Source of the DNA: Candidatus Peribacteraceae bacterium
Lineage (GTDB): Bacteria; Patescibacteriota; Gracilibacteria; Peribacterales; Peribacteraceae
Direction: 5' to 3'
DNA length: 63,498 bases
NCBI GenBank assembly: GCA_028703835.1
Contig: JAQVMB010000006.1
Coordinates: forward strand, 1-63,498
Made by a program: the position numbers and the translations under genes. The notes under the pieces are model-generated. The model did not search any database. It worked only from the letters and a program-made list of their open reading frames with translations, and was not told the origin of the DNA. Below, one piece after another: positions 1,370 to 56,326 of the stretch; position 1 is the first letter of the stretch, and every line of letters starts with the position of its first letter.

Positions 1370-3154
1370 TCAATGAGCAAAGAAAAACAGCGAGGTAATG
1401 AACAGAGCTTCCAGAACAACAAACATCCACAGGATGCTCGTCCCGAAGCGGTTGAGGAGCGTGAAGCGCGTCTGCGTCCCCCGGACGGCGTAGTATGACA
1501 GCGGCACCGCGAGGAGCGGGACGTACCGGAAATCCTGCATGATGCTGAACGGATGGATGAGGCGCCCGACGAACAGGAACAGGAGCAAGCCGACGAGCGC
1601 GGCGAAGACGGGGAACGCCTCCATGAACCTCTCCCGCTTCTCCAGCCCCAAGCCGACGGCGGTGAACGCGAGACCGGCCATGCCGAAGAGGAGCATCAGG
1701 TACGTGAGGGTCGCGAGCTTCGCGTCGAAGACGTACTCGCCGAAGAACGACGACCGGAAGAGGTACTCCAGGAAATACTCCTTCTCTTCCTCGGCCCCCG
1801 TGGGGCTGTTGTACGGGTGGCGGAGGACCTGGAGCGGATGGAAGCGCAGCGTGTGGGAAACGGTATGGTTCAGCCGGAGCGCGGGATCGAGGAGATCGGC
1901 ATTCCCGATGAACGACGTGTTCTCCTGCATCCGCAGGGCGTACAGCCACCCCGTCAGGGCGATGAGAATGACGAGGAAAAGCGAACCGGCGTGGAACTTT
2001 TCACGCCACGGGATCCGCTTCGCCAACAGGCAGAGCCCCGCCACCCCCGCCATCGGCAGCACCGTGTTCTTCCCCAAGATGCCCGCGCCGATGACGATCG
2101 CCGCCGCGATCCAATGCCGCGTTTTCCCGCCCTGCCACCACGCGAGGAGCAACGCGAAAGAAAGGAAGGACATGAAGCCGGCGAACGCGTCGTTGTTGAT
2201 GACCGTGGTGAGGTAGACCACGCCCGGCACGGACGCGGCGAGCGCGAGGAACAGGGCGCTGTCCTGCCGACGCTTTCCCGCCCGCAGGAGACGCAGCCCG
2301 ATCCAGGCCGCAATAACGAGCGTCCCGAGCGAGAGCAGAAACGATCCTTTCTGGAGATCCAGGAGCAACGTTTCGAACGAACGGCCGAACGCCTCCCCGA
2401 TGCGCATCCAGAGCGCGCCGAGCGCGAAGTACAACGGCGGCTGGAAGTACTCCAATCCGCCGGCGGACACCGGCGGGACGCGGGCATGTTCGAGGAGGTA
2501 GCGGATGTAGCCGATCTCGTTGTCCCAGTCGTGCGCACGGACATAAATCAGCGTGGAGAGCAGGTAGAGCCACCGCAGGAGCACGCCGCCGGCCGCGACC
2601 GGAAACACCCACCCCAGGCGGCGCAACGCGGCGAACCGCCCGTACCACGCATGCACATACCATCCGCACAGGCTGATGCCGAGCAGCAGCAACGCCAGGA
2701 AGACGGGATCGGTGTGCGCAACATGGAGGGAGAACGCCCCCGCCCCGCCGCCGTCCCGCACCGTCGCGATGACGCGGTTCCACCCCGCCCGCAACGGCGG
2801 ATCCAGGCGGATGCGCCGCGGGATGCTGTCGCAGAAAGGCGTGCCGACGGCGGCCTCTTGCCCGTTCACCTCCAGCCGCTGCATGCAATCGTCCGCGAGG
2901 AGATCGAACGCGGGCACATGGATGGCGGGCACGTACACGTCGACCGCGACGCGGAGGTCCTCGCCGCGGCTGGTGTAGACGAGCGGGAGCGAGAACGGCC
3001 GCGGCTTTTCGCCGTTGACGGCGTACAGCCCTTCGGAAAACCGCGGCAGAAGCGCCTGCGACAGGAACAGCAGGCAAAAGACGCCCGCCGCGAAGATGAT
3101 CGAGCGAAGCCAGAGGGAACGATGCAGGCGCATGCGGTGTCGGTCGTGAATCAC
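1370..3154 (-). CDS. GT-C type integral membrane glycosyltransferase
   Basis: The protein is 594 residues with a short basic N-terminus, a first membrane helix, an exported beta-rich stretch of about 130 residues, and then roughly ten more hydrophobic spans. The loop after the next helices has the acidic pair in AHDWDNEIGY and the motif YFQPPLYF; an acidic loop followed by PPLY is typical of GT-C enzymes (PMT/ArnT-like) that use polyprenyl-phosphate sugars. The start is GTG, chosen because TACAAT ends five bases upstream. Donor and acceptor are unknown. The large extracytoplasmic insert between helices 1 and 2 is unusual. Confidence 0.65.
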   Translation of the reverse strand: MIHDRHRMRLHRSLWLRSIIFAAGVFCLLFLSQALLPRFSEGLYAVNGEKPRPFSLPLVYTSRGEDLRVAVDVYVPAIHVPAFDLLADDCMQRLEVNGQEAAVGTPFCDSIPRRIRLDPPLRAGWNRVIATVRDGGGAGAFSLHVAHTDPVFLALLLLGISLCGWYVHAWYGRFAALRRLGWVFPVAAGGVLLRWLYLLSTLIYVRAHDWDNEIGYIRYLLEHARVPPVSAGGLEYFQPPLYFALGALWMRIGEAFGRSFETLLLDLQKGSFLLSLGTLVIAAWIGLRLLRAGKRRQDSALFLALAASVPGVVYLTTVINNDAFAGFMSFLSFALLLAWWQGGKTRHWIAAAIVIGAGILGKNTVLPMAGVAGLCLLAKRIPWREKFHAGSLFLVILIALTGWLYALRMQENTSFIGNADLLDPALRLNHTVSHTLRFHPLQVLRHPYNSPTGAEEEKEYFLEYLFRSSFFGEYVFDAKLATLTYLMLLFGMAGLAFTAVGLGLEKRERFMEAFPVFAALVGLLLFLFVGRLIHPFSIMQDFRYVPLLAVPLSYYAVRGTQTRFTLLNRFGTSILWMFVVLEALFITSLFFFAH

Positions 3155-3232: not shown

Positions 3233-3238
3233 TACATT
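3233..3238 (+). promoter_or_regulatory. Extended -10 box TACATT for the ALG10-like gene
   Basis: TGG precedes TACATT (extended -10), which ends seven bases before the ATG at 3246, so the transcript should be leaderless or nearly so. Confidence 0.5.
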
Positions 3239-4665: not shown

Positions 4666-4671
4666 TATGAT
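4666..4671 (+). promoter_or_regulatory. Extended -10 box TATGAT for purC
   Basis: TGC-TATGAT ends six bases before the purC ATG. The nearly identical string TTGCTATGAT precedes tpiA at the same spacing. This implies a leaderless transcript. Confidence 0.65.
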
Positions 4672-4677
4672 TCTGTC

Positions 4678-5637
4678 ATGCCCCACCGCCTCACCCCGTT
4701 CCTGACGACCACGCTCAACGAAACCGACTTCGGTTTTTTGGGGAAGAAATATGAAGGGAAAGTCCGCGACGTCTACATGCCGGACGATACGCGGCGCATC
4801 CTCATCGCGACCGACCGCCAGTCCGCCTTCGACATCAACTGGACGACGATCCCGCTGAAAGGGCAGGTCCTGACGCAGATCAGCAAGTGGTGGTTCGACC
4901 GGGTGAAGGACGTGATGCCGACGCACGTGCTCGCGCTCCCCGACCCGAACGTGATGGTGGCGAAGAACCTGCAAATGCTGAAAGTGGAAATCGTCGTGCG
5001 CGGCTACCTGACGGGATCCACGGGCACGTCCGCATGGGTGAATTACGACAAAGGCGTCCGCAATTTCTGCGGGAACATCCTCCCCGAGGGGATGGTGAAG
5101 AACCAGAAATTCGACGCACCGATCATCACGCCGACGACGAAAGGCGAGGAGGACGAGCTGATCGACGCGAAGGGCATCGTGGACCGCGGCTTCGCCACGC
5201 AGAAGCAGTGGGACGAGATCAGTGACCGCGCCCTGGCCCTCTTCAAGAGAGGACAGGAGATCGCGGCGGGACGCGGGCTGATCCTGGTCGATACCAAATA
5301 CGAGATGGGTTTCGATGCCGAGGGGACGCTGACGATCGGCGACGAGGTGCACACGCCGGACTCCTCGCGCTACTGGGTCGCCGCGACGTACGGGGAGCGG
5401 CATGCGAAGGGACAGGAACCGGAAAGCCTGGACAAGGAGTTCTTCCGCCTCTGGCTGCGAGAGCAGGGATTCGAGTACGGAGGCAAACGGCCGGAGATCA
5501 CTGACGACGTGCGCATCATGCTCGCGGAAAAGTACATCAGCCTCTACGAGAAAATGACGGGCGAGACGCTTGCGATCCCGGACGGGGCGAACGTGAAGGA
5601 GAGGATTGAGAGGAATTTGAAAGCATATTTGCGCTGA
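4678..5637 (+). CDS. purC: Phosphoribosylaminoimidazole-succinocarboxamide synthase
   Basis: SAICAR synthetase joins CAIR and aspartate with ATP in de novo purine synthesis (cytosol). The 319-residue length fits the longer type. Motifs include GKKYEGKVRDVY near residue 23 for the ATP loop, TDRQSAFDINWTTIPLKG (about 42-59), EIVVRGYLTGS (about 103-113), and DTKYEMGF with DEVHTPDSSRYW near 203-226, the metal and substrate region. The ATG is fixed by TATGAT six bases upstream. The next gene starts at the base after the stop, so the two are cotranscribed. No other purine gene is in the window. Confidence 0.95.
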   Translation: MPHRLTPFLTTTLNETDFGFLGKKYEGKVRDVYMPDDTRRILIATDRQSAFDINWTTIPLKGQVLTQISKWWFDRVKDVMPTHVLALPDPNVMVAKNLQMLKVEIVVRGYLTGSTGTSAWVNYDKGVRNFCGNILPEGMVKNQKFDAPIITPTTKGEEDELIDAKGIVDRGFATQKQWDEISDRALALFKRGQEIAAGRGLILVDTKYEMGFDAEGTLTIGDEVHTPDSSRYWVAATYGERHAKGQEPESLDKEFFRLWLREQGFEYGGKRPEITDDVRIMLAEKYISLYEKMTGETLAIPDGANVKERIERNLKAYLR

Positions 5638-7330: not shown

Positions 7331-7336
7331 AGTGTA
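7331..7336 (-). promoter_or_regulatory. Extended -10 box TACACT for rpe
   Basis: TGC-TACACT on the minus strand ends six bases before the rpe ATG, giving a leaderless layout. Confidence 0.6.
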
Positions 7337-8914: not shown

Positions 8915-8920
8915 AGGATA
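8915..8920 (-). promoter_or_regulatory. Extended -10 box TATCCT for rpiB
   Basis: TGC-TATCCT on the minus strand ends six bases before the rpiB ATG; leaderless layout. The palindrome at 8941-8968 lies just upstream. Confidence 0.55.
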
Positions 8921-9862: not shown

Positions 9863-9868
9863 TATGAT
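9863..9868 (+). promoter_or_regulatory. Extended -10 box TATGAT for tpiA
   Basis: TGC-TATGAT ends six bases before the tpiA ATG, the same arrangement as purC. Confidence 0.65.
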
Positions 9869-13952: not shown

Positions 13953-13958
13953 TACACT
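13953..13958 (+). promoter_or_regulatory. Extended -10 box TACACT for dprA
   Basis: TGG-TACACT ends six bases before the ATG at 13965. Confidence 0.55.
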
Positions 13959-15097: not shown

Positions 15098-15508
15098 GTG
15101 ACTTGTCTCCTCTCCCCCGGTTCTCGAGCGGTTGTGGAAGGTTCATTCACGCAGGAAACCCCCCCTTCCAACGAGGAAAGAAGGGTCATGCATGCACTGA
15201 GACTGAGCCGTTTGCTTCCCCGGCAACGCCTCCTCATTCACGCTTACGAAGAGATGGGCATTCCCCTGTCGGAACAGTGGACGGCTTGGCAGGAATCGCA
15301 ACAAATCCGAAACAGCGCCGGAAGGCCGACATTTGAAAGGACGTTCTTCGAACATCTGGAAGGCGACCTTGCGATTCAAAGGGAAGCACAAGCGCACATC
15401 ACGGAAGGCAGGGCCGCCACGCGTGCGGACGCGATGCAATTGATCGCACGCGACCATGCGGAAACATATGAGGAGATCAGGCGGCATCTGCGGAAAAAGC
15501 CCCGGTAA
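15098..15508 (+). CDS. Small protein of unknown function
   Basis: The 136-residue soluble protein is rich in Arg, Glu and His and mostly helical by composition (RQRLLIHAYEEMGIPLSEQW and ITEGRAATRADAMQLIARDH). No domain is recognised. The start is set at GTG because TATAAT lies exactly six bases upstream; an ATG at 15188, preceded by GAGGAAAGAAGGG, is a second candidate and would give 106 residues. It stands alone between dprA and the sortase pair. Confidence 0.6.
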   Translation: MTCLLSPGSRAVVEGSFTQETPPSNEERRVMHALRLSRLLPRQRLLIHAYEEMGIPLSEQWTAWQESQQIRNSAGRPTFERTFFEHLEGDLAIQREAQAHITEGRAATRADAMQLIARDHAETYEEIRRHLRKKPR

Positions 15509-18396: not shown

Positions 18397-18402
18397 ATTC
18401 TA
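18397..18402 (-). promoter_or_regulatory. -10 box TAGAAT for the TMTC-like gene
   Basis: TAGAAT on the minus strand ends six bases before a GTG start, so GTG would be the first transcribed codon. Confidence 0.55.
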
Positions 18403-24692: not shown

Positions 24693-24698
24693 AGTGTA
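24693..24698 (-). promoter_or_regulatory. -10 box TACACT for map
   Basis: TACACT on the minus strand ends six bases before the map ATG, so map is probably transcribed separately from adk and leaderless. Confidence 0.55.
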
Positions 24699-25393: not shown

Positions 25394-25531
25394 ATGTCGG
25401 GAGAGTAACGGCATCGCCGTCATCATGCAAAGCCGCTTACACCCCACACGTCATCGGAGAACGAAACGCAGACCCTTCAAGGGAAAAATATGCCGAAGCG
25501 GCTGTAGACTGTGCGCATTCCCCCTCCCCGC

Positions 25532-27096: not shown

Positions 27097-27102
27097 ATTC
27101 TA
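27097..27102 (-). promoter_or_regulatory. -10 box TAGAAT for the hydrolase gene
   Basis: TAGAAT on the minus strand ends seven bases before the ATG at 27089, leaderless spacing. Confidence 0.5.
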
Positions 27103-32306: not shown

Positions 32307-32312
32307 AGTATA
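32307..32312 (-). promoter_or_regulatory. -10 box TATACT for the DJ-1 gene
   Basis: TATACT on the minus strand ends six bases before the ATG at 32300; leaderless spacing. Confidence 0.6.
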
Positions 32313-52170: not shown

Positions 52171-55100
52171 TCAGTGTTTCCTCTTCCTCTTCACCCACGC
52201 GAACCCGGCACCCGCACCTGCCGCCATCACAGCCAGCGCGGCCGGGCCGCTTTGGTTGAGGGGAGCGGTTGTGGGATAGGCATACTGGTACTGCGGCACC
52301 ATATGAGTGAGCGGCATGGTCTGCGCAATGAGGGGCTGAGTCTGGGCTGCGACGAGGAGACAGGAGGATGAGCAGCCGTCGCCGTCTCTGGCATTGCCGT
52401 CATCGCACTGCTCGGAGGCGTCCTGGATGCCGTCGCCGCAGCGGATGAGGGTGCAGGTGGAGCGGCAACCCGAGCCGCCGTCGCACTGTTCTCCATTCTG
52501 GACGATAGAGTCGCCGCAGGAAGGCAGCTTGCAGAGATTGGAGCAGCGGTCATTATTGATGTCATTCATGTCGTCGCACTGCTCGTTTCGGTCGAGAACG
52601 CCATCCCCGCAGCGGGCAGGGGTACAGTCCTTGCGGCAGGCGTTGGGGGTGTAATCGGAGTTCTTGGTGCCCTGGTCGCACTGTTCGCCTTGCTGGAGAA
52701 CGCCATCCCCGCAGCGGGGGGCCTTGCAGGTGGAGGTGCAATCGTCATCGTTGGAGGTATTGCCGTCGTCGCACTCCTCTCCGGGCTGGGTGAAGCCGTC
52801 ACCGCAGGCAGGCTTGCGGCAGTCCGTGGTGCAGAGATCCTCGTTGGAGTTATTGCCGTCGTCGCATTGCTCACCGGCTTGGATGATCTTGTCGCCGCAG
52901 TAGGGCATCTGGCAATTGGCGAGGCATCCGGGTGTTCCGTCGCACTGCTCCCCGGTGTCCTGCACCTTGTCCCCGCAGCGGGGGGCCTTGCAGGTGGTGC
53001 GGCAGCGGTCGGGGACGGTATTGGAATTATCCTCGCCCTCGTCGCACTGCTCGGTGCCCTGGACGATGCCGTCGCCGCAGACGGGGTACTTGCACCGGGT
53101 GGTGCAGGAATCATCATCGGCCTGATTGCCATCGTCACACTGTTCCGAAAGCTGCGTGATGCCGTCGCCGCAGGAGGGCAACTGGCAACCATTCGTGCAG
53201 CCGTCGGCGTTGGTGCGGTTGCCGTCATCGCACTGTTCGCCGCTCTGGACGATGCCGTCGCCGCAAGAGGGACGCTTGCAGGACGTCGTGCAGCCGTCAT
53301 CGTTCGAGGCGTTGCCATCGTCACACTGTTCAGTGAGCTGCGTGATGCCGTCGCCGCAGGAGGGCAACCTGCACACGTTGGTGCAGCCATCGATGTCCGA
53401 CGCGTTGCCGTCGTCGCAGGCTTCGCCGGCTTGGGTGATGCCGTCGCCGCAGCGGGCCGTGGGAGCGGCCGGGTACACGGGACTCTGGGAAGAGGCGGCG
53501 GGAGACTGGAAGTACGTGGAGCGGGCGGAGGAGGAGGCGGGGGCGGGCGGGGGCGGAACGGAAACGGCACGGGCGGAAGAAGCGGCGGGTGTCACCGGAG
53601 GAACGAAGATGGAACGTGCGGAAGAAGCGGCGGAAGGAACGTAGGGACGGGCGGAGGAGACAGCAGCGTTTGTCGCGGCTTCGCGTCGGCAGGTGCTGCT
53701 GCAGCCGTCACTGTTGGAGGTATTGCCGTCGTCGCACTGCTCGGCGCCCTTCAGGAGGCCGTCGCCGCAGACGGTCATGCACGACGTACCCGTGCAGGAC
53801 CAGCCCGGTTCGAGCCTGCAGGCCGACGTGCAGCCGTCGTTCGCATTGGTGTTGAAGTCGTCGCACTGCTCTTCGTCATCCTGCCTGCCGTTGCCGCAGG
53901 TCTCGGAGCATTTGCTCGGCACACCCGTGCAGGAGTAGCCGCGATCCACCAGGCAGGACGTGCAGCCGTCATCGTCCCGCGTATTGCGATCGTCGCACTC
54001 TTCGCCTTCGGACTGATCCACCGTCCCGTCGCCGCAGTTCTGCGAGCAAGCACTCGGAGAACCGATGCAGGAGAAGCCGGCTTCTCGTGTGCAGAGCGAG
54101 GAACAGCCGTTACCGCCGGACTTGTCGCCGTCGTCGCACTGCTCGGTGCCGAGCACCATCCCATCGCCGCACACGGGCTTACAGGGTTGGCCTGCCGTGC
54201 AGGTCCATCCGTCTTCGCGGTAACAGAGTGCGGAACAGCCGTCATCCCCCCCCTGATTGCCGTCGTCGCACTGCTCGGTGCCCTTCACGAGGCTATCGCC
54301 GCAGACGGTCGTGCAGGACGTGCCCGTGCATGCCCATCCTGTTTCCAGCCTGCAGGCATTCGTGCAGCCGTCATTGTTGGCGGCATTTTCGTCATCGCAT
54401 TGCTCTCCTTGATCCATCACCCCGTTGCCGCAGGTTTTCTCGCACTGACTTGGCACGCCCATACAGGCATATCCCGACTCAGCCCGGCAGGAATTGCTGC
54501 AGCCATCTCCATTGGATCCATTCCAATCATCGCATTCTTCGCCGGCATCGAGCGTGCCGTTGCCGCAGGTTTTCTCGCAGCGGCTGGGCTCATCCAGCGT
54601 GCAAGCGTATCCCGTGTCGATCGTGCAGGACGTACAGCCGTCCCGGGACGTGCTGTTATCATCGTCGCACTGCTCGGATCCCCGGATCAGGCCGTCGCCG
54701 CACGTGGGCCGGCAGGGTTGGCCGGCCGCGCAAGTCCATCCGTCTTCGCGGTAACAGAGTGCGGAACAGCCGTCATCCCCCCCCTGGCCGCCGTCGTCGC
54801 ACTCCTCGTCACCTTCCACCTTGCTGTTGCCGCATCGGCTGCAGACGGTCTTCGTGCCGTTATGCGTGCAATCCCATCCGTCTTCGAGCTGGCAGGAAGC
54901 GGAGCAACCGTCCTCGTTCTGAAGCGGCGATTGCTTGTCATCGCAGGTCTCCGTCCCCTCAACGATCCCGTTGCCGCACTTGTTGCAGATGCTGATCCCG
55001 TCGCCGGTGCTGCAGGTCCAACCGCTGACGACGGCGCTGCACGTCGCATTGCATCCTTCGGATCCGTTCTTATTCCCGTCATCGCAGGCTTCCCCGCTCT

Positions 55101-56310
55101 GGATGATGCCGTCGCCGCACGCGCGGCAAACGCTCCTGCCCTGCGCATTGGTGGTGCACTGCCAGCCGCTGACGATTTCATTGCAGTATTCATTACAGCC
55201 TTCCGAACCGTCCGTATTCCCGTCGTCGCAGGCTTCCGTTCCCTCCTTCACTCCGTTGCCGCACCGCCGGCAGACGCTCTTGTTGTTCTGCCGGTCACAC
55301 TCCCATCCGTCTTCGATCCGGCAAGCGGTGGAGCAACCATCATTGTTGGCGGTTGCCTTCTCCTTATCGTCGCATTCTTCATCGCCTTTCAGAAGACCGT
55401 CCCCGCAGATGGGAGCACATACGCTGGGCGCGGAACCGGTACAGTTCCACCCCGTTTCGACGTCACAGTTGCCGGAGCAGCCGTCGTCGTCGTCCTCATC
55501 CCCGTCATCGCATGCATCCGTGCCGTCGATGATGCCGTCTCCGCATATCGGTGCGGCAAGAATCTGGAAGGTCTGTGTCGCCGTCTTCCATAGCGTGGAG
55601 TCGATGGTGCGCGTCCCGAACCCTGGGTTCGCGGTAATTTCCATATGCACATGGCACCCCTGCGCCGAGAACTCATACGCCCCTGGCAAGGTTCCCGACG
55701 CATCCGTCTGGACGATCTCATGTCCACTGTAGTCTCCGGAACTCCAAAGATCATTGGAAGCGAACCACTCGCATTCCTGCCAACCATGGCTATCCCACGT
55801 CACTTCGAATGTGTCCCCTGCCGTCACGGAAGACGCCGAGAGCGAGAGCGAGGGATGGGGAGGAAGGACCCAGAATTCCGTTCCCACGCCCCCCGTCGAC
55901 TGCCCTGGAGGGTAGAGAGTCACTTGGTAGAACCCGGCGTTCGACGCGAAATTATGCAGTTCGCCGGAGCATGCATTGGACACAACGGTCCCCCCTCGCT
56001 TCAGTGTGCACGACCCTGTCCAAGGAGAACTCCATGAGACAACTACATCATGATCCCCGAAAAGCGCCTCGCCCGGAGCCGTCCCATTTCGGAAAGAAAC
56101 GGAAGCCGTCCCCGTCTGTCCCAGGAAGTGGATGCCCGTAGCGGCTGCCGATCCGGTTCCCAGGAGAACAAACAACACCAGGATCGTTTTCCGCCACCGA
56201 AGTATGTGCCCCACCTTCTCTCGAGCCCCACGTTTCGGCACACACGTCTCTTCTCCAAAGCGGAGAGGCTGTTGGTCTTTGAGGGCAAGTGGTGTTTGTT
56301 TCACGTCCAT
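52171..56310 (-). CDS. Giant Cys-rich DUF4215-type surface protein B
   Basis: The 1379-residue protein starts with a charged cytoplasmic stretch and one membrane helix (TILVLFVLLGTGSAAATG), then two Ig-like beta regions with Cys pairs, and about 26 DUF4215-type repeats. A Ser/Ala/Pro/Arg hinge (PAASSARSIFVPPVTPAASS-like, about residues 925-985) sits between 14 and 12 repeats. The tail is PLNQSGPAALAVMAAGAGAG then FAWVKRKRKH. TGC-TATAAT ends ten bases before the ATG. Highly similar to protein A in its C-terminal half, so they are tandem paralogues. A secure secreted or surface location; role unknown. Confidence 0.9.
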   Translation of the reverse strand: MDVKQTPLALKDQQPLRFGEETCVPKRGAREKVGHILRWRKTILVLFVLLGTGSAAATGIHFLGQTGTASVSFRNGTAPGEALFGDHDVVVSWSSPWTGSCTLKRGGTVVSNACSGELHNFASNAGFYQVTLYPPGQSTGGVGTEFWVLPPHPSLSLSASSVTAGDTFEVTWDSHGWQECEWFASNDLWSSGDYSGHEIVQTDASGTLPGAYEFSAQGCHVHMEITANPGFGTRTIDSTLWKTATQTFQILAAPICGDGIIDGTDACDDGDEDDDDGCSGNCDVETGWNCTGSAPSVCAPICGDGLLKGDEECDDKEKATANNDGCSTACRIEDGWECDRQNNKSVCRRCGNGVKEGTEACDDGNTDGSEGCNEYCNEIVSGWQCTTNAQGRSVCRACGDGIIQSGEACDDGNKNGSEGCNATCSAVVSGWTCSTGDGISICNKCGNGIVEGTETCDDKQSPLQNEDGCSASCQLEDGWDCTHNGTKTVCSRCGNSKVEGDEECDDGGQGGDDGCSALCYREDGWTCAAGQPCRPTCGDGLIRGSEQCDDDNSTSRDGCTSCTIDTGYACTLDEPSRCEKTCGNGTLDAGEECDDWNGSNGDGCSNSCRAESGYACMGVPSQCEKTCGNGVMDQGEQCDDENAANNDGCTNACRLETGWACTGTSCTTVCGDSLVKGTEQCDDGNQGGDDGCSALCYREDGWTCTAGQPCKPVCGDGMVLGTEQCDDGDKSGGNGCSSLCTREAGFSCIGSPSACSQNCGDGTVDQSEGEECDDRNTRDDDGCTSCLVDRGYSCTGVPSKCSETCGNGRQDDEEQCDDFNTNANDGCTSACRLEPGWSCTGTSCMTVCGDGLLKGAEQCDDGNTSNSDGCSSTCRREAATNAAVSSARPYVPSAASSARSIFVPPVTPAASSARAVSVPPPPAPASSSARSTYFQSPAASSQSPVYPAAPTARCGDGITQAGEACDDGNASDIDGCTNVCRLPSCGDGITQLTEQCDDGNASNDDGCTTSCKRPSCGDGIVQSGEQCDDGNRTNADGCTNGCQLPSCGDGITQLSEQCDDGNQADDDSCTTRCKYPVCGDGIVQGTEQCDEGEDNSNTVPDRCRTTCKAPRCGDKVQDTGEQCDGTPGCLANCQMPYCGDKIIQAGEQCDDGNNSNEDLCTTDCRKPACGDGFTQPGEECDDGNTSNDDDCTSTCKAPRCGDGVLQQGEQCDQGTKNSDYTPNACRKDCTPARCGDGVLDRNEQCDDMNDINNDRCSNLCKLPSCGDSIVQNGEQCDGGSGCRSTCTLIRCGDGIQDASEQCDDGNARDGDGCSSSCLLVAAQTQPLIAQTMPLTHMVPQYQYAYPTTAPLNQSGPAALAVMAAGAGAGFAWVKRKRKH
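52174..52263 (-). other. Candidate sorting tail of protein B
   Basis: Encodes PLNQSGP, a 16-residue Ala/Gly/Val segment and KRKRKH. Nearly the same as in protein A. Confidence 0.6.
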
Positions 56311-56320
56311 GAATCATGAA

Positions 56321-56326
56321 ATTATA
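56321..56326 (-). promoter_or_regulatory. Extended -10 box TATAAT for protein B
   Basis: TGC-TATAAT on the minus strand ends ten bases before the ATG at 56310. Confidence 0.55.

Follow-up and report, generated by a model that had tools for sequence, protein, structure and literature searches.

In a genome assigned to Candidatus Peribacteria, the -10 boxes of the ordinary primary sigma factor very probably place the transcription start at or near the start codon, and about a third of the mRNAs would be leaderless; the probability of this reading, which is drawn from sequence analysis, is roughly 0.9. The genome consists of 1,335,977 bases (98.5% complete, 60.3% GC), and the window, which is the whole stretch of 63,498 nucleotides that was analysed, is its contig C36. 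The host is probably a member of Candidatus Peribacteria, judged by the relatives of its purC gene, the nearest of which in the species collection (82% identity) is from an uncultured Candidatus Peregrinibacteria bin, while the next ones are mostly from Peribacteria. The gap is given below as the number of bases between the box, TANNNT, and the start codon.

The box upstream of purC (SAICAR synthetase, Pfam PF01259; 4678-5637, forward strand) is TATGAT at 4666-4671, with TGC on its 5' side, and is followed by the six bases TCTGTC at 4672-4677, which abut the ATG at 4678. This extended -10 box is therefore present as described in the earlier note, and the predicted +1 is the A of this ATG, as judged by sigma-70 geometry. 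The earlier note had listed 16 genes of the window that share such a box at gaps of 5 to 7. TANNNT is found at one of these gaps before 14 of them, but the genes at 42288 (TTACAT) and 11485 (AATAAT), both assigned to gap 6, fall outside the pattern. The boxes at gap 6 other than that of purC are those of rpe (ATG 7324; TACACT with extended TGC, 7331-7336, reverse strand), rpiB (ATG 8908; TATCCT with extended TGC, 8915-8920, reverse), tpiA (ATG 9875; TATGAT with extended TGC, 9863-9868, forward), dprA (ATG 13965; TACACT with extended TGG, 13953-13958, forward), a TMTC-like gene (GTG 18390; TAGAAT, 18397-18402, reverse), map (M24 peptidase, ATG 24686; TACACT, 24693-24698, reverse), a DJ-1/PfpI gene (ATG 32300; TATACT, 32307-32312, reverse) and the genes at 15098 and 46913. 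Pfam matches back the assignment of purC, rpe, rpiB, tpiA, dprA, map and the DJ-1 gene, and TPR repeats are the sole Pfam matches of the TMTC-like gene. The genes at 15098 and 46913 are weak as genes, because they have no Pfam match and are absent from the gene calls, which were made without upstream sequence. The genes assigned to the other two gaps are placed correctly: a DIE2/ALG10-like membrane gene (ATG 3246; TACATT with extended TGG, 3233-3238, forward), a serine hydrolase gene (ATG 27089; TAGAAT, 27097-27102, reverse) and a ZIP transporter gene (ATG 42477; TACAAT, 42464-42469, forward), all three identified by Pfam, have gap 7, and the gene at 3154 has gap 5. Two further Pfam-identified genes, absent from that list, have boxes at gap 8, namely adk (ATG 25393; TACTCT, 25402-25407, reverse) and a DUF4215-repeat gene (ATG 56310; TATAAT with extended TGC, 56319-56324, reverse). 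The latter (52171-56310, reverse) encodes a protein of 1,379 residues with 22 DUF4215 stretches. Boxes at gaps 6-9 precede 13 of the 57 called genes of the window, as compared with about 2 expected (binomial P 7e-8).

The same signal is present genome-wide. Genes were called with our own caller, the coding model of which is blind to upstream sequence, and the scan of TANNNT against 983 called starts (refined set) gives 14, 4, 124, 62, 60, 48, 24 and 28 boxes at gaps 4 to 11. The peak at gap 6 has a sharp lower edge. When 64 patterns of the form XYNNNZ are ranked over 30 gaps, TANNNT at gap 6 takes the first rank (122 of 955 genes, background 7.8), with TANNNT at gaps 7, 8 and 9 directly behind it, and the box fraction exceeds 0.15 in 25 of the 27 contigs with at least 10 genes. 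Thus, the peak that the earlier note had predicted for the whole genome exists, but the rule spans gaps 6 to 9 rather than 5 to 7, because gaps 6-9 are enriched and gap 5 accounts for only 4 of the 983 starts. Gap 5 is rejected from the rule of this genome for this reason, although it is the site of the peak in another family (f119, see below). It is reasonable to use the position of the box as a guide to start codons, as the earlier note had proposed, purC being the case examined. An origin of the peak in A+T-rich or codon-biased start regions, or in the caller's choice of starts, is hardly credible. The regions 5' of starts do differ from the genes in being C-rich and G-poor, but column shuffles among genes, which keep the composition of each position, yield 36 boxes at gap 6 on average and no more than 57 in any of 500 trials, and no such peak is seen at 5,360 in-frame internal ATGs or with the reverse-complement motif before starts. 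Likewise, starts of the longest open reading frames peak at gap 6 (74 of 764), and the box of purC persists in loci that have diverged. This explanation is already refuted for the bulk of the signal.

The box has the properties of an extended -10 element of the sigma-70 type. In the aligned gap-6 boxes, the middle positions are T/C, A-rich and A/C, and G is present two bases 5' of the box in 51% of them. The fit to TTGACA is best at a spacer of 17 (2.18 of 6 matches, as compared with about 1.45 at most other spacers). An EM model seeded with an extended -10 converges to A 0.98 at the second position, T 0.98 at the last and G 0.60 at the extended position. The primary sigma factor of this genome (contig C10, 98709-100184) is ordinary in regions 2-4, which align closely to SigA/RpoD of solved structures. 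Approximately 50 residues of this protein extend past region 4 and contain two CxxC pairs (CPNC and CDHC) in a zinc-ribbon-like arrangement; the best solved-structure alignment ends before this tail. The box precedes 116 of 352 divergently transcribed genes, but only 3 of 55 overlapping same-strand genes (4-base overlaps are present in 43 same-strand gene pairs). It is very unlikely that TANNNT is a translation signal, recognised by the ribosome on a leadered mRNA, instead of a promoter. Another ribosome signal might be expected where Shine-Dalgarno (SD) motifs are missing, but a ribosome signal accounts neither for the TGn and the -35 element at spacer 17 that accompany the box nor for its rarity in overlapping operon-internal genes, which need translation as well.

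The EM estimate of the leaderless fraction is 28% (gaps 6-9) to 31% (gaps 6-11) of called genes and 34-37% of divergently transcribed genes. The estimate is probably low, because the gene calls contain start errors. Approximately 70% of called genes have no box at gaps 6-11, for which the start errors of our caller account only in part. For operon-internal genes and internal ATGs the EM procedure returns a fraction of 1.00 with no box-like matrix, and therefore no usable estimate. The view that leaderless initiation is the main mode is only partly supported, in view of the above fractions. However, the box is the one positive signal for initiation that was found, as neither the operon nor the divergent class of genes is enriched in SD motifs.

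The exact site of transcription start would follow from the spacing. A C-rich, purine-poor stretch lies 5' of all starts of this genome, including those of no-box and operon-internal genes. C at -1, which resembles a transcription initiator and could be taken as proof of the transcription start, was rejected as weak evidence, because this C is common in no-box genes as well (49-72%, depending on whether the genes are divergent, far, near or overlapping). It is improbable that the promoters are real but produce leaders of 1-5 bases, or that leaderless transcripts arise only as a minor side product, with other promoters located upstream. This possibility draws on the shoulder at gaps 7-11 and on gap-7 genes, 45% of which have a purine (35% have G) directly before ATG, so that some transcripts from gap-7 boxes may have a 1-base leader. 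However, the mode is gap 6, with a sharp edge below it, and purines are depleted ahead of ATG at the longer gaps: their share is 0.35 and 0.25 at distances 7 and 8 for gap-8 boxes, and 0.29, 0.21 and 0.19 at distances 7, 8 and 9 for gap-9 boxes, against a background of 0.45. The start would therefore be pushed to the A of ATG at gaps 8 and 9. Leaders of 1-5 bases are in any case too short for an SD motif.

The signal is conserved among relatives. In 51 purC-bearing Peribacteria-like loci (449 genes), 74, 30, 36 and 20 boxes are found at gaps 6, 7, 8 and 9, where the background is 5.5, and there is no SD excess in these loci (38 against 49 in the background). The SD motif is enriched, and no comparable box peak is seen, in loci of Francisella (23 against 1), Acidobacteria (50 against 22) and Fibrobacter/Chitinispirillum (23 against 7). 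The box of purC itself is kept at gaps 6-9 in 45 of the 51 loci (33 at gap 6, 2 at 7, 8 at 8 and 2 at 9), a count in which chance matches are somewhat raised because every in-frame start close to the expected position was admitted; one of the six loci without a box is N-masked. Three contigs labelled Deltaproteobacteria or Proteobacteria (loci L070, L097 and L099) carry a purC of the Peribacteria type, the promoter of which has the same geometry, and are probably mislabelled bins.

SD motifs look avoided in this genome, because SD-like motifs precede 64 of 972 genes, as compared with 134.8 in control windows (7% against 14%). The 16S rRNA ends with GGAATATCTCCTTA, in which UCUCC takes the place of the usual CCUCC. 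In the family of this genome, ACCTCC is missing in all 13 genomes and CCTCC in 12 of them (G230 retains it). Among 286 Patescibacteria genomes the 16S tail is readable in 199, of which 165 have ACCTCC, including G183 by virtue of a second, intact tail on another contig, and 34 lack it, including G075, the tail of which was not displayed. Complete loss of the anti-SD sequence is seen in 12 genomes, which represent 11 families (G043, G269, G260, G183, G219, G227, G235, G252, G130, G244, G210 and G116; for example, tail GGATTATTTCAAA). Several of these genomes may represent one clade, because the helix preceding the tail is similar in most of them. Of the two 16S tails of G183, the one on contig C6, near the contig start, has CCTCC and the one on C2 does not; this double tail is possibly due to contamination.

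In four genomes that have lost the anti-SD sequence, the box is enriched over background (G130, 0.41 against 0.12; G183, 0.38 against 0.05; G235, 0.38 against 0.09; G227, 0.26 against 0.12), but SD stays at the background level, the corresponding values being 0.08 against 0.10, 0.13 against 0.11, 0.04 against 0.13 and 0.09 against 0.12. G165 and G248, which keep CCTCC, have the box together with SD (0.28 against 0.18 and 0.41 against 0.11, respectively). Comparison of these two groups indicates that leaderless and SD use coexist in some CPR genomes and that SD use is gone in others. The median box ratio is 4.80 in the 35 genomes with an altered anti-SD sequence and 2.78 in the 164 with an intact one, whereas pooling of the ten altered genomes that belong neither to f1 nor to the lost group yields a lower ratio (1.81 against 2.75). 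A family-level test of anti-SD change against box ratio gives a marginal P of 0.02 with kinship ignored. Statistically, anti-SD change and box ratio are thus linked in a suggestive but not a clean way. Decay of the anti-SD sequence as a simple result of leaderless use is only partly supported, in view of the lower ratio of the ten altered genomes and the mixed state of G165 and G248. Protein bS21 as a reason for an unused anti-SD sequence is weak, its presence being patchy (12 of 19 genomes). In the 19 Patescibacteria genomes, a match to Era through its C-terminal end (2-269) is seen only in G126 and G056, both from families with an intact anti-SD sequence; in the others the match is limited to the G domain, as Der would give. 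Era does not separate the cases.

The 286 Patescibacteria genomes were also surveyed for TGNTAYRMT followed by ATG after 6-9 bases, with 2-5 bases as the control. The totals are 12,102 and 4,259, respectively. The 6-9 count is the higher one in 260 genomes (in 183 of them at binomial P <0.01, kinship ignored), and a significant deficit at gaps 6-9 is seen in none of the 286. By family, the gap ratio is at least 2 in 88 of 130 and below 1.3 in 24 of 130. As judged by a different control, the backward reading of the pattern, the counts are 252 against 23 in four Peribacteria and 637 against 375 in 16 non-CPR genomes or records reached via named loci. Genetic code 11 was used throughout the per-genome box and SD counts. 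A low ratio does not mean that leaderless genes are absent, because the control at gaps 2-5 includes gap 5, where G250 has its real signal. In G250 (family f119, loci L249-L256, intact anti-SD sequence), the maximum of TANNNT lies at gap 5 (38 of 150 genes, background 3.3), and the boxes are otherwise typical extended -10 elements with a clear TGGTATAAT. The one-base shift fits a lineage-specific distance between the polymerase and its start site, as far as f119 can be represented by G250. A gap-6 peak is likewise present in G196 despite its low survey ratio (22 against 12).

According to the preferred reading, a polymerase carrying the primary sigma factor would start at the start codon or no more than about three bases from it, and roughly a third of the genes would therefore have leaderless mRNAs with a 5'-terminal AUG or GUG. 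Ribosomes would initiate on the 5'-terminal AUG, operon-internal genes that have neither box nor SD would be translated by coupling, and the 16S anti-SD sequence would have been free to drift once SD pairing was needed less. There is perhaps a slightly less than even chance that leaderless initiation is phylum-wide, and perhaps ancestral, in Patescibacteria, that SD pairing was abandoned in Peribacteria and separately in the families that have lost the anti-SD sequence, leaving initiation on 5'-terminal AUG together with coupling, and that the polymerase spacing was shifted in f119, with the box 5 bases before ATG. CPR bacteria form a large, mostly uncultured part of bacterial diversity. Should leaderless starts be frequent among them, start annotations based on an SD model would often be wrong, and -10 boxes would be directly readable from genomes. 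Lineages with a decayed anti-SD sequence would be natural tests of bacterial life without SD pairing, which is a long-standing question on the evolution of translation initiation.

To our knowledge, leaderless bacteria such as Actinobacteria and Deinococcus keep SD for their other genes. This genome differs from them, in that it shows no enrichment of SD motifs (64 against 134.8 of 972) and the core of the anti-SD sequence is altered. Two parts of the present result are already in print: the -10 rule (Zheng et al. 2011, PMC3160421) and the SD-scarce, CCUCC-lacking state of Peribacter (Estrada et al. 2024, PMC10783764). Joining them for CPR bacteria is provisionally new: the open-access literature on leaderless or SD initiation in CPR, Patescibacteria, Peribacteria and Saccharibacteria gave no report of leaderless promoters, subscription papers being mostly outside the search. 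In the survey of Zheng et al., TANNNT about 12 bp upstream marks leaderless genes and is found in 207 of 953 bacteria; such genes exceed 20% in Actinobacteria and Deinococcus-Thermus, and the table examined from this survey of 953 genomes lists no CPR group. The genes described here resemble these TA-led genes (PMC3160421) in having the TANNNT core above shuffles about 12 bases upstream, which, counted from the first T, is gap 6, together with the sigma-70 features extended TG and -35, and also in the little information of the middle positions at high GC and in the share of genes, roughly 20-40%. According to PMC9581028, GeneMarkS-2 predictions (Lomsadze 2018) give leaderless transcription in 21.6% of bacterial species, with up to 40% of transcripts, a mode that is likewise predicted for the genome analysed here. 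Class iv of Estrada et al. ('SD-scarce organisms lacking CCUCC') is set at SD pairing in <5.5% of mRNAs by hybridisation energy, whereas the values of this genome (7% against a background of 14%) are motif counts. This class lists Candidatus Peribacter riflensis, Absconditabacteria, Campbellbacteria and Wolfebacteria, and in its treatment there leaderless mRNA is offered as a reason for Nanoarchaeia only, with no promoter rule for the CPR members. With its 16S rRNA without CCUCC, the genome analysed here resembles class iv (PMC10783764), in which one Peribacter has the same kind of anti-SD change.
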